Positions 27,732-31,953 of a stretch of DNA of 64,000 nt are shown in pieces (within the stretch, counting starts at the first letter, position 1; each line of letters starts with the position of its first letter). Source of the stretch: Saprospiraceae bacterium (GTDB taxonomy: Bacteria; Bacteroidota; Bacteroidia; Chitinophagales; Saprospiraceae); NCBI GenBank assembly GCA_019187225.1, contig JABAQQ010000004.1:98904-162903 (forward strand), read 5' to 3'. The notes beneath the pieces are model-generated. The model was not told where the DNA came from and ran no database searches. It saw only the letters and a list, made by a program, of their open reading frames with translations. The position numbers and the translations under genes are program-made.

Positions 27732-27790
27732 TTAAAACGGGTTATATGCATCTGGATTGTTCACAAACGCTGTATCACTCAAAGAAAGTA
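27732..27790 (-). pseudogene. Relic tail of a second MauG/MbnH-like gene
   Basis: The minus strand reads LSDTAFVNNPDAYNPF-stop. The last residues of the intact di-heme gene next to it read LTDTAFVNNPDVQNPFQ-stop; 13 of 16 positions are identical at the protein level while many codons differ in the third position. So this is the end of a diverged paralogue whose remaining part is gone, not a fresh duplication. Upstream the similarity fades within about ten codons at the C9 tract (27803-27811) that borders the intact gene's stop. Confidence 0.75.
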
Positions 27791-27818: not shown

Positions 27819-28982
27819 TTACTGAAACGGATTCTGCACATCCGGATTATTCACAAACGCCGTATCCGTCAGCGTGTGCAGAAAAGCGATGATATCGGCA
27901 GTTTGGGAGGGCGTCAGGCCGGGATAGTGCCCCTGTACCGGAAAGCCGATCTGCTGCACGAAAGGGTCTTCGTTGACGAAGCCGGTTCCGTTGTCGTTGT
28001 ATTGCGCCATCACTTCTTCGAGCGTCTGGAAGCGCCCGTCGTGCATGTAGGGCGCGGACATGGCGATGTTGCGGAGCGTGGGCGCGCGGAATTTGCCGTT
28101 GTCCGAGGGGTTTCCGGTGAATTCGCCGAGACCTTTGTCCACAAAATCGTTGAAAGAGCCAACGCTGTCGAGACCGTTGTTGAAAAAATTGTTGCCCGTC
28201 AGGGTAACACTGCCATGACAATGGAAGCACTGCGCGTCAGGCAGTTGGAATTGGGCGCCTTCGTCGAAATACATGAGTTTGCCGCGCAGTTCCTCGTCTT
28301 CCAAGTCAATTTCTCCTTTCACGAAACGGTCGTACTTCGACATGCCGCTGCTGATGAGGATGCGCTCGAACTGGGCGATGGCTTTGGCAGCGAGTTCTTT
28401 GGTGATCTCCTCGCAGGAATTGATGCCGAAGGCTTTGCGGAAATAGCCGGGGTAGTCCGGGTGGTTTTTCAGTTTTTGGACAACTTCCGGCCAGGTTGTG
28501 TGCAGTTCGATGGGGTCTTCCACCGGTTTAAGCGCCTGTTCTTCGAGGTTTTTGACGCGACCATCCCAGAACAGCCGGGTGGTGACGTAGGCGATGTCGA
28601 GCAGGCTCATGGAACTGCGCCGCCCCGCTATGCCGTCTATTCCTGTCGAAACCGCCTTGTTGTCGGTGAAACTTCCCTGCGGCAAGTGACATGAGGAGCA
28701 CGACATGGTGCTGTCGCCCGACAAAATGGGGTCGTAAAACAAACGCCGTCCCAATTCCACCCCTTCCGCCGTCATCGGGTTGTCTGCGGGCACCGGAACC
28801 TGCGGAAAATGGTCGGGTTTTTTGATCGTATACGGCGTCGGGCTATACGGAATATCCGTCAGGTCGCACACAAGCGGCGCAGGTGGCGGATCTTTTTTGC
28901 ATTGGGCTAATACAACGACTGCTGAGATCATTGCGATGCCAATCAGGGGTTTGATGCCGGCTTTGTACACTAAAAATTTCAT
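27819..28982 (-). CDS. Di-heme cytochrome c peroxidase/MauG family lipoprotein (MbnH-like)
   Basis: 387 residues. Lipoprotein signal: IAMISAVVVLAQCKKD with the lipid-bearing Cys. Two heme-binding motifs, CSSCH (near residue 110) and CFHCH (near residue 250), plus the segments ELGRRLFYDPILSGD, GRRSSMSLLDIAY, FWDGRVKNLEEQALKPVEDP and GKFRAPTLRNIAMSAPYMHDGRFQTLEEV that are diagnostic of the CcpA/MauG family (PF03150). MbnH is a member of this family that oxidises a tryptophan of its partner MbnP to kynurenine. Two MbnP-like lipoproteins are encoded directly upstream on the same strand, so an MbnH-like role is more likely than peroxide removal. The start was set at MKFLVYKAG, which opens the lipoprotein signal; the upstream open frame lies inside an inverted-repeat element. 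Confidence 0.9.
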   Translation of the reverse strand: MKFLVYKAGIKPLIGIAMISAVVVLAQCKKDPPPAPLVCDLTDIPYSPTPYTIKKPDHFPQVPVPADNPMTAEGVELGRRLFYDPILSGDSTMSCSSCHLPQGSFTDNKAVSTGIDGIAGRRSSMSLLDIAYVTTRLFWDGRVKNLEEQALKPVEDPIELHTTWPEVVQKLKNHPDYPGYFRKAFGINSCEEITKELAAKAIAQFERILISSGMSKYDRFVKGEIDLEDEELRGKLMYFDEGAQFQLPDAQCFHCHGSVTLTGNNFFNNGLDSVGSFNDFVDKGLGEFTGNPSDNGKFRAPTLRNIAMSAPYMHDGRFQTLEEVMAQYNDNGTGFVNEDPFVQQIGFPVQGHYPGLTPSQTADIIAFLHTLTDTAFVNNPDVQNPFQ

Positions 28983-28998
28983 TTTCAGCAATTTTAAC

Positions 28999-29173
28999 GA
29001 GGCTATCTCATAAGCCGGTGATTCGTTTAATTGGTGATTGGGAGAATAGCCACACAGAGCGTGATGCTGCCCTGCACTCATTTATTTGAAAATATCCTGA
29101 TTATCAGGGTATCACCCAATCAACGAATCACCCATCAACGAATCACCAAATCACCAGCTTACGAGACGGCCTC
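28999..29173. repeat. MITE-like inverted-repeat element A
   Basis: 175 bp bounded by GAGGCTATCTCATAAG and, inverted, CTTACGAGACGGCCTC. Inside the ends the arms carry the words GTGATTCGTTTAATTGGTG and their complement (CACCAAATCACC, AACGAATCACC). The core TTTATTTGAAAAT-n2-CCTGATTATCAGGGT is shared with the inverted complement of element B at 39095-39225. No coding capacity and no clear target duplication. It fills nearly the whole gap between the MbnP-like gene and the di-heme gene, ending 16 bases before the latter's ATG. Confidence 0.82.
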
Positions 29174-29183
29174 TATTCGTGAA

Positions 29184-29939
29184 TTATTTCAAAACGGTAG
29201 CATTCTTAAAGTTCTCCATCACCATTTGTCCCAAAGCGATGTTGGAAGCGTCGTGCGAAGTCGTCTGATTGGTCGTCACTGTGAGGTCGAGCAACTGCCC
29301 GTTGAAAGTGAAAAGCTTTTTCAGATCGAATTCGACGACGAGCGAACCGGTGCCTGCCACAGCAATATTACCATTGGTCGTGGCCACGTTGTACACCGGA
29401 TCGGAACCGCAGTGATAGAACAGGTTGGTTTCGGTAACGCCATCTCCATTTAAATCCACTTCGCCCTGTACCTTGGTGAAAATGTAGCTTTTCCAGCCCG
29501 ACCAGTATTCGGATTCGACGTAGAGCGGGTGATCTGTCGGGAAATCCGCAGGACTTTTCGCGTTCAGGTCAGGGCTGACGCCGTAGCCCAGCTTGATACC
29601 GGTATAATTGCCGTCCGGCACGGTGTATTTGTAGGTCACTTCCACCGTTTTGTCGTTCGGAGCGAGATCGGGCGTGAAATTCACCCATTCGATGTCGGAA
29701 AGTTTTACTTCCGTAGCGCCGTTCACTAAGGCGATGTCCGACAGGTAGGTATTGAATTTATCGAATAAGATCACCTTGTCGCCATAGGGATAATTTTTGT
29801 ATTTCTCCAGCAATTCGCCGTCGTAGGTTGCCCGGAAAGTGAGGGAAAAATTGTCCTTTATATCGGTATCATCGTTGTCTTTGCAAGATGAAAATGAAGC
29901 GGCTGCGAACAGCAGCAGGAAAAAAGCGAAATTTTTCAT
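29184..29939 (-). CDS. MbnP-like lipoprotein 2
   Basis: 251 residues. Lipoprotein signal MKNFAFFLLLFAAASFSSCK. The mature part is a beta-sandwich-type domain like the MbnP family (PF20243): NFSLTFRATYDGELL, LFDKFNTYLSDIALVNGATE, TVPDGNYTGIKLGYGVSPDL, and the Trp-containing motif YVESEYWSGWKSYIFTKVQG. LFYHCGSD and the strands LVVEFDLKKLFT fit the rest of the fold. In the characterised system MbnP is a periplasmic copper-binding protein that needs a tryptophan turned into kynurenine by the di-heme enzyme MbnH. The MbnH-like gene is the next one downstream. The start is the ATG that opens the signal; the longer frame runs through a word-repeat spacer. Confidence 0.82.
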   Translation of the reverse strand: MKNFAFFLLLFAAASFSSCKDNDDTDIKDNFSLTFRATYDGELLEKYKNYPYGDKVILFDKFNTYLSDIALVNGATEVKLSDIEWVNFTPDLAPNDKTVEVTYKYTVPDGNYTGIKLGYGVSPDLNAKSPADFPTDHPLYVESEYWSGWKSYIFTKVQGEVDLNGDGVTETNLFYHCGSDPVYNVATTNGNIAVAGTGSLVVEFDLKKLFTFNGQLLDLTVTTNQTTSHDASNIALGQMVMENFKNATVLK

Positions 29940-30148
29940 GGATGTGTGTTTGTGGATGTTGAATTTACTGACGTTGGACTTATTGATGTTGGACGTGCGA
30001 ATATTGAAAAGGTATTGATTTTCAGCGTGGAAATTTTCACAATCATTCTTCCCATTGCGCAAAATCATCCGGCCCAACGCCGGGCATCATCCAGTCCGAT
30101 GTCCAATGTCAATCAGTCAAACGTCCAATTGCGCAAATATCTTCTGAT
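29940..30148. repeat. TTGGACGTTGGAC word spacer between the two mbnP-like genes
   Basis: The left part (29941-30000) repeats GATGTTGAA, GACGTTGGACTTATTGATG and TTGGACGTGCG; the right part (30090-30140) repeats complements (CCGATGTCCAATGTCAATC, GTCAAACGTCCAATTGCGC). Imperfect long inverted repeat. On the coding strand the C/A-rich arm leads straight into the ATG of the downstream gene. Confidence 0.65.
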
Positions 30149-30985
30149 TTATTGGGAAACGCTGAACACGCCCGGCAAGTTGAGGGCAATCTGGCTTTTC
30201 CAGGCGGAAATGTCGCCGTTTGACCAATCTATTCCGTCGAACATTTTTTGGTAATCAATGCCCAGTTTGAGCCGGAAATCGTAGCCCCCGGATGGGTGGA
30301 GGTAATTACCCGTTTTTTCGATAAAAAAGTCGGGTAACTGGGATTGGGTGAAGGCGAGCGTATCGGGTTTGGTAGCCTGCATGGAATCGCGCACCACGAC
30401 GGCCTGGAAGAAAACGTAACCTGCCGAAGGGCCATACCAGAGGCTGTCGCCTTGTATGCGCAGCGGACTTCCTGCGGGAGCGAGGCGCGGAATGACGCGC
30501 TGGGCATCGGGAGAAAGGCCGAGCCGGATGCGTACTTTTTCAAAAGTGCCGGCGGGCCGGAACTCGCCCACCGGATTGTCTACCGGCGTGCGGCGCAGCA
30601 GCAAAAAATCGTCGGTAAAAACCTCCTTCAGCGTGTCACCGCCGCCGGGCGCGTAAGTCCGGAGATGCACCGTGTCGGCCACTGCCAGGAGGCCGCCATT
30701 CTGAAACAATTGAATTTCAGAAAGATAGAAAGCTACACTTTTAATGCGGAACAACTGCCCCGCATTGTTTTCATACAAGGCGTCCGGCACATATTGCACG
30801 CTGTCGCTTCCATAGCGGTGAAGCGCTTCGACGATCAGTTGGGGATATTCGCAGCAACAATCCTTGTCAGCGGAAGCGTCGAAGTTGGTGGCTTCGATAT
30901 CGAGGCAACCTTCCTTCGGTTCGAAGCAGGCCGTCTGCGAAAAAATACAAAGCAGACAGCAAAAGGCAAAAAGCGAACGATTCAT
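30149..30985 (-). CDS. MbnP-like lipoprotein 1
   Basis: 278 residues. Lipoprotein signal MNRSLFAFCCLLCIFSQTAC, then a cysteine-rich segment CLDIEATNFDASADKDCCCE that is common in Bacteroidota MbnP-like proteins. Domain motifs parallel those of the neighbour: LFRIKSVAFYLSEIQLFQNG, TFEKVRIRLGLSPDAQRVIP, and LWYGPSAGYVFFQAVVVRDS at the place of the Trp motif. LKLGIDYQKMFDGIDW and the final LNLPGVFSVSQ match the family's C-terminal strand region. First gene of the inferred operon MbnP1-MbnP2-MbnH-like. The protein differs enough from MbnP2 to be an old paralogue. Confidence 0.78.
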   Translation of the reverse strand: MNRSLFAFCCLLCIFSQTACFEPKEGCLDIEATNFDASADKDCCCEYPQLIVEALHRYGSDSVQYVPDALYENNAGQLFRIKSVAFYLSEIQLFQNGGLLAVADTVHLRTYAPGGGDTLKEVFTDDFLLLRRTPVDNPVGEFRPAGTFEKVRIRLGLSPDAQRVIPRLAPAGSPLRIQGDSLWYGPSAGYVFFQAVVVRDSMQATKPDTLAFTQSQLPDFFIEKTGNYLHPSGGYDFRLKLGIDYQKMFDGIDWSNGDISAWKSQIALNLPGVFSVSQ

Positions 30986-31040: not shown

Positions 31041-31844
31041 TCACAATTCTTTCATCATCCGTTTGATGATCTGTTTGACCTGCGAAGAGAATTCTTTTTC
31101 CAGTATCCAGTGACCGTAGTTTTTTTCTTTTTTCAGCACTTCTTTTACCGGTTGACCGACGTATTTCCCGAAATTAAAAACGACCGTCCCGTCCGGCTGA
31201 ACTTTCAGTTTTTGGGTCGCGTCAAGAAAATTGAAGTCGTTGGTGAAGTCGTGCAACACCTGGATATCGTTTTTGATGGGGGCCGGAATGACGTTGCCTT
31301 CTTCATCCAGCAAGTCCTTGCCTTCATAAACGCTGATCTGGCCTTTGAAAACGTCAATGGTAGCGCGCACATCAGCGAGCGCATTGTGGGCATCCTCGAG
31401 TTCTTTCTGGCAATAAAAACGATAGGCGGCTTTCAGTGTTCGCGGCTCCATTTTATAGAATATACGCTGAACATCAATCAAACGCCGCTTCGAGATGTCG
31501 AACTCCATGCCTACCCGTGCAAATTCTTCCATGAGCATGGGCACGTCGAAGCGGTTGGAGTTATAACCCGCAAGGTCGGCACTGCCGATAAAATCCCATA
31601 TTTTTTGCGCCACCTGGGCAAAAACGGGCTTGTTGGCCAACTCTTTGGGCGTAATGCCATGCACCGCCATCGCCTCTTCCGAAATGGGAATGCCGGGATT
31701 GATCAGCATGGAAAGTTCGGTGGGCGGCTGACCGTTTTTGTGGAGTTTCACTAAGGCAATTTGCAGAATGCGGTCGCGCACCACGTTGAGGCCGGTGGTT
31801 TCCACATCGAAAAATACGAGGTCGCGGGTGAGGTTGAGTTGCAT
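31041..31844 (-). CDS. DEDDh 3'-5' exonuclease (DNA polymerase III epsilon-like)
   Basis: 267 residues. Exonuclease fold with all three Exo motifs: FFDVETTGLN (Exo I, Asp-Glu), LAGYNSNRFDVPML (Exo II) and EDAHNALADVRATIDVF (Exo III with His and Asp). The C-terminal 90 residues contain VVFNFGKYVGQPVKEVLKKEKNYGHWILEKEF, a small domain often found after this exonuclease in Bacteroidota. Cytoplasmic; expected to trim single-stranded or mismatched 3' ends of DNA or RNA; not shown to be the replicative proofreading subunit. The ATG directly follows the GCAGTGG word repeat. Confidence 0.85.
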   Translation of the reverse strand: MQLNLTRDLVFFDVETTGLNVVRDRILQIALVKLHKNGQPPTELSMLINPGIPISEEAMAVHGITPKELANKPVFAQVAQKIWDFIGSADLAGYNSNRFDVPMLMEEFARVGMEFDISKRRLIDVQRIFYKMEPRTLKAAYRFYCQKELEDAHNALADVRATIDVFKGQISVYEGKDLLDEEGNVIPAPIKNDIQVLHDFTNDFNFLDATQKLKVQPDGTVVFNFGKYVGQPVKEVLKKEKNYGHWILEKEFSSQVKQIIKRMMKEL

Positions 31845-31953
31845 GGCGGTGGCGGTGGCAGTGGCAGTGGCAGTGGGCAGTGGCAGTGGCAGTGGGCAGT
31901 GGCAGTGGGCAGTGGCAGTGGGCAGTGGCAGTGGCAGTAGTGCTGCCCACTGC
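31845..31953. repeat. GCAGTGG hexamer/heptamer repeat filling the terC-exonuclease gap
   Basis: From 31845 to about 31938 the sequence consists of GTGGCA and GTGGGCA units (about fifteen), then GTAGTGCTGCCCACTGCTCAC, which can fold back on a GTGAGCAGTGGGCAG-like unit. It occupies the complete space between the TGA of the terC gene (31954-31956) and the ATG of the exonuclease gene (31842-31844). Confidence 0.9.

Follow-up and report, generated by a model that had tools for sequence, protein, structure and literature searches.

We analyzed three consecutive minus-strand genes, A, B and H, in a 64,000-nucleotide stretch of a Saprospiraceae bacterium genome (GCA_019187225.1, contig JABAQQ010000004.1, positions 98,904 to 162,903; this whole stretch is called the window below, and coordinates count from its first letter), and consider it reasonably probable that they constitute a variant of the MbnP-MbnH system that has three genes and is specific to this lineage. 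In the MbnP-MbnH pair of Methylosinus trichosporium OB3b, the enzyme makes a kynurenine in its partner, which then binds Cu(I). Judged by sequence, B and H are likely a kynurenine-copper pair of this kind, and A is likely a non-substrate partner. The fixed third member A, its lost site and its cysteine motif are new as far as our searches go; no description of the A-B-H trio was found among the papers listed from the literature searched, which leaves out most subscription papers.

Enzyme H and the predicted copper site of lipoprotein B

Gene A (30149..30985), gene B (29184..29939) and gene H (27819..28982) encode products of 278, 251 and 387 amino acids, each with a lipobox, and the codons of their key residues were checked. 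An earlier note on this DNA had described the same set, with the heme motifs CSSCH and CFHCH in H, and had assigned the enzyme to the MbnH/MauG group; both descriptions stand. H matches the CCP_MauG profile suggested there (PF03150) at 183.7 bits. Its best NCBIfam match is TIGR04039 (MbnH), at 258.1 bits and below the equivalog cut-off of 362.85, followed by TIGR03791 (MauG) at 153.7 bits, far under its cut-off of 443.85. Similarly, the best match by sequence in the PDB is MbnH (6e1c; residues 54-386, 193.6 bits, E 5e-56), ahead of CcpA-type peroxidases (144.8 bits, E 3e-41) and MauG chains (93.2 bits, E 1.6e-25).

Alignment of relatives places the two CxxCH heme motifs at residues 95-99 (CSSCH, 28686..28700) and 252-256 (CFHCH, 28215..28229). 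Trp139, in FWDGR (28566..28568), is presumably the inter-heme tryptophan, and Tyr328 (27999..28001), which we take to replace a peroxidase methionine, is matched by Tyr in 6e1c and by Met in Geobacter CcpA. By alignment, H thus carries the MbnH/MauG-type marks and lacks the methionine of cytochrome c peroxidases. Among 88 aligned enzymes (87 fetched sequences and H itself), Trp139 is present in 87, and both CxxCH motifs and Tyr328 in 86 each, with two rows gapped. Enzymes adjoining canonical WxW MbnP share the Tyr (31/31) and mostly the Trp (27/31), whereas the second heme motif has the form CxHCH in 84 of the 88 and in only 2 of these 31. By its profile matches and aligned residues, H is a two-heme enzyme of the MauG/MbnH type with a lipobox.

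The earlier note had called both A and B MbnP-like lipoproteins. For B this holds at the level of the family profile (PF20243, 70.9 bits against a cut-off of 27) as well as of the site residues, while A scores 24.8 bits, under the cut-off, although it too has the MbnP fold. From sequence and fold matches, A and B are paralogues that share the MbnP fold and each have a lipobox, and in an unrooted tree of 80 rows a branch with support 99 parts A from B, the canonical rows not forming one group.

In B, the substrate tryptophan and the copper histidine of MbnP are present by alignment. Trp146 (29502..29504), the predicted kynurenine site, lines up with the first Trp of the WxW motif, and His176 (29412..29414) is a predicted copper ligand; each residue is found in 56 of 58 aligned B proteins. 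Moreover, in L146 and L166, the two B proteins without this Trp, the His is missing as well, such that both residues are kept or lost together. In canonical WxW MbnP the next strand carries the aligned His in 32/32 proteins of the same family and 23/23 outside it, and the solved MbnP aligns its WNW and HVG with these motifs. These canonical proteins were chosen through a WxW filter, which makes their WxW count not independent, whereas the His count is; none of the 32 family loci failed the filter, and outside the family one of 24 was dropped, for length only. His229 (29253..29255) is a candidate second ligand: in one alignment, 52/55 canonical relatives hold Met or His at its column, as would suit a Kyn/His/Met or a Kyn/His/His set. 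A TIGR04052 (WxW MbnP) match at E 0.01 or better is found in 56/58 aligned B proteins (best 4e-17).

The tryptophan pattern varies among the 58 B proteins, with WxxW in 40, WxW in 5, a single Trp in 11 and none in 2. All 11 single-Trp loci (L121, L125, L128, L134, L136, L139, L140, L141, L144, L163 and L167) have two enzymes, and 34 of 38 WxxW loci have one, the loci being related to one another. At L129 and L137, B is a 391-392 amino acid frame overlapping the enzyme frame, which may reflect either the start chosen or a fusion.

With the surface-export signal of C. canimorsus as yardstick (PMC5080379), at least two acidic residues stand at +3 to +7 after the lipid Cys in 45/58 B, in 54/61 A (there within the Cys motif) and in 46 of the 82 H with that Cys (of 88 in all). 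By analogy this is suggestive, and no more, of surface export of B. H of the window has one acidic residue in this span (CKKDPPP).

Lipoprotein A, its site columns and its cysteine motif

A carries neither residue of the MbnP site in register. For A of the window, the Trp146 column holds Tyr, with a Trp one residue earlier, and the His column holds Ala. Neither column is conserved among 61 aligned A proteins, where the His column is most often Arg (19), Ser (6), Val (6), Asn (6) or Ala (5) and the Trp column Trp (14), Phe (12), Leu (9), Tyr (7) or Arg (4). A Trp occurs anywhere in the motif in 31 of the 61, and a His within three columns of the site in 2/48 (first alignment). Of the aligned A proteins, 56/61 match PF20243 at E 0.01 or better; A of the window gave no match to NCBIfam models. 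Its closest named relative, at 72% identity, is from a Saprospiraceae metagenome-assembled genome (L095).

What A does conserve is a motif at its lipid-proximal N-terminus, C-[YF]-E-P-x-E-G-C-L-D-x-x-A-x-N-F-D-x-x-A-D-x-x-C-(gap)-C-C-x-Y-P. It comprises Cys20 (30926..30928), the predicted lipidated residue, Cys27 within GCLDxxAxNFDxxAD (30905..30907) and the run Cys43-Cys44-Cys45 (30851..30859). Cys20, Cys27 and Cys45 are present in 61/61 A proteins; Cys43 and Cys44 occur together in 57 and are jointly absent from four (L121, L128, L129 and L141). No further Cys follows the motif in 51/61. The motif presumably resembles the two-Cys repeat of Bacteroidota secreted proteins, with an extra Cys pair. 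That A is a decayed gene was rejected: its frame is intact here, and its own motif is kept in 61 aligned proteins forming one clade. Broken relatives do occur, namely an A-like match with two internal stops in one genome (G106) and an A in two frames at L091.

Conservation of the gene order and alternative explanations

The A-B-H order is kept in most relatives examined, as read from their sequences. MbnP matches occur in 193 of 199 family genomes, and A-like and B-like matches at E 0.001 in 181 each; the weaker of the latter may be other MbnP. B adjoins A in 26 of the best 30 A loci and A adjoins B in 25 of the best 30 B loci; of the four and five misses, respectively, one each lies at a contig end. 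In 80 named loci, deposited at NCBI as Saprospiraceae, Lewinellaceae, Phaeodactylibacter, Chitinophagales or unplaced Bacteroidota, A-B-H stand on one strand in 66; two others read A-H-C-H and A-C-H, where C is a canonical MbnP, and 20 have two tandem enzymes. The locus of Lewinella cohaerens (L169) reads A-B-H-H. The 80 loci gave 60 aligned rows for A and 57 for B, L138 supplying two of the latter; loci without rows had no gene, no scripted start before the lipobox, or a row set aside, as for A of L118 (a fragment) and B of L104 and L109 (near-copies) and of L129 and L137 (overlong).

In a phylum sample of 296 genomes, matches of at least 100 bits reaching the N-terminal motif of A occur only in the sample's six genomes of the same family, including that of the window; in one of the six, L177, the text pattern for the motif failed. 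The other A matches begin past the motif, span the motif alone, or are weak. At 24 loci outside the family, covering 1.5 kb on each side, all MbnP are of the WxW type, 23 have one MbnP with one enzyme, the other (L200) has an extra MbnP fragment beside the pair, and no partner with the Cys motif is found.

If A-B-H is a three-gene variant of the MbnP-MbnH system, H would use peroxide to reach a high-valent di-heme state and oxidize Trp146 of B to kynurenine, and B would then bind one Cu(I) at the outer membrane, with His176 and probably His229 as ligands beside the kynurenine; CorA and MopE have such a Kyn/His/His set. The set would serve copper storage or uptake rather than the making of methanobactin. 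A would perhaps no longer bind copper at the MbnP site and may serve B and H as a docking or scaffold protein; alternatively, it may hand on copper by way of the Cys motif close to its lipid anchor. We give little weight to the more specific proposal that A receives or supplies Cu(I) through this Cys cluster, with hand-on between the kynurenine site on B and a thiolate site; if true, a two-part MbnP-MbnH system became a three-part surface machine.

Several observations weigh against the three-gene variant as proposed. B of the window scores 22.1 bits against TIGR04052, far under the equivalog cut-off of 140; its tryptophans read WxxW instead of WxW, with the first in register and the second shifted, and the Met that precedes the Trp in 31/32 canonical proteins is absent. 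The His229 column holds His in 41, Asn in 10 and Gln in 5 of the 58 B proteins, and is unstable once A joins the alignment. No copper gene was seen adjoining the set. At L166 a B protein without Trp and His stands beside two enzymes, which indicates that site loss and enzyme loss are not always coupled. Twelve of the 80 loci have no H nearby (seven A-B, five A alone), three of them ending at a contig edge, and these 80, found through the motif of A itself, cannot count loci that lost A. Finally, the Trp of LWxG..G[FY] is kept in 16/16 near A proteins (the one of the window included, from 22 such loci), which makes some role possible and counts against the position being useless. The shifted Trp, the lost Met, the low TIGR04052 score and the lack of a copper gene next door favor another outcome, in which B and H make a different Trp-derived product or B binds a metal other than Cu(I) with kynurenine; we regard this as unlikely, given that the canonical-site Trp and His are kept and lost together.

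Another explanation concerns A. The earlier note had suggested that A and B, with LWYGPSAGY and YWSGWKSY at the Trp motif, could be modified differently, which would make them two versions of one substrate. The shared MbnP fold and the Trp of the near A proteins speak for H modifying both proteins, each at its own Trp motif, so that two kinds of copper protein would result, but A lacks the His kept in 32/32 canonical family MbnP and in 56/58 B, its Trp183 (30437..30439) lies one residue out of register, and only 2/48 A proteins have a His near the site and 31/61 a Trp in the motif. We dropped LWYGPSAGY as a substrate motif, and modification of both proteins appears quite improbable. A distinctly unlikely possibility is that the Cys motif of A is itself a Cu(I) site, in which case A would hand copper to B or take it over from B. 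The invariance of Cys27 and Cys45, the joint presence or absence of Cys43 and Cys44, as expected of a working pair, and the scarcity of later cysteines fit such a site; however, the layout GCxDxxAxNxxxxAxxxxxCxYP resembles a common disulphide-held repeat found in secreted proteins of Bacteroidota, other members of the phylum also have matches limited to the Cys stretch, the four joint losses may be one event, and disulphides account for the pairing equally. That H is an ordinary di-heme peroxidase, with A and B merely sharing its operon as surface lipoproteins, draws on its strong match to CcpA-type peroxidases, yet 6e1c is the better match, A and B share the fold of MbnH's own partner and the order is kept in 66/80 loci. 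A plain peroxidase was rejected on the Tyr where Met is expected, and the operon-sharing explanation is very improbable.

Genome context and comparison with known systems

The gaps between A and B (209 nt) and between B and H (201 nt) each hold a short tandem repeat, at 29955-29994 and 29111-29155. Past the stop of H, on the minus strand at 27732-27776, the 3' end of H is repeated, the copy encoding DTAFVNNPDAYNPF ahead of a stop (25/28 bases match, E 3e-5). This copy may be what is left of a second enzyme gene in tandem, an arrangement present in 20 of the 80 relatives; a text-pattern search for it over 400 nt past the enzyme in 21 near loci found nothing. Upstream of A is a DnaQ-type exonuclease gene (31041..31844, minus strand), with a TGGCAG array by its start (31844-31938). 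Its orthologues (59-94% identity) precede A in 23/31 loci with long flanks, a stable gene order that is probably inherited; a functional tie was dropped, despite this frequency, for lack of shared chemistry.

The host assembly (7.18 Mb, 73 contigs) encodes five MbnP and has CCP_MauG matches at eight places (nine matches, two sharing one frame). Besides the trio, contigs C5 and C2 carry ordinary pairs of a WxW MbnP and an enzyme. On contig C10 (L214:5288-6111), the enzyme gene near the best-scoring MbnP of the genome, also WxW, is split over overlapping frames, only one of the two having a heme motif, which points to a broken gene or an assembly error. No match to the MbnB family (PF05114) was found in the genome, in a search whose control was positive in 2/14 genomes, and a methanobactin locus was rejected for this reason. 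The earlier note was thus right that the set stands without methanobactin genes, but this is not special, since the pair is widely known outside methanobactin producers (PMC3621798), and two more WxW pairs lie in the same genome.

For the role of kynurenine-copper proteins outside methanotrophs, the loci described here offer natural test material, comprising a probable substrate, B, with Trp and His kept or lost jointly, a site-less twin A still adjoining, and 20/80 loci with tandem enzymes.

The closest known system is MbnP-MbnH of M. trichosporium OB3b (PDB 7l6g, 6e1c; TIGR04052, TIGR04039), where, as here, a di-heme MauG-like enzyme adjoins an MbnP-fold partner; B keeps that partner's substrate Trp and copper His, and H keeps the enzyme's Tyr and Trp. 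Reportedly, in a 2021 PNAS paper, the ligands of OB3b MbnP are His, Met and Kyn, and the first Trp is the one modified. Unlike that system, the present one pairs a single enzyme with two partners, of which A is without the site; B has WxxW with the preceding Met gone; lipoboxes stand on all three proteins and MbnB is absent from the genome. MauG is likewise a di-heme enzyme modifying a protein Trp, but H is closer to MbnH. CorA (with CorB, Methylomicrobium album) and MopE (with SACCP, Methylococcus capsulatus) are described as surface copper proteins that carry Kyn and two His and are accompanied by a di-heme MauG-like enzyme (PMC3912023), and the predicted Kyn/His/His set of B resembles theirs; neither is among the sequence or fold matches listed for B, which excludes nothing. 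Conservation of the MbnP-MbnH pair reaches far outside the methanobactin producers (PMC3621798), and the WxW pairs of other Bacteroidota and of this genome join the same two families, those outside the family differing from A-B-H in having, with one exception, a single MbnP per enzyme and no partner bearing the Cys motif.

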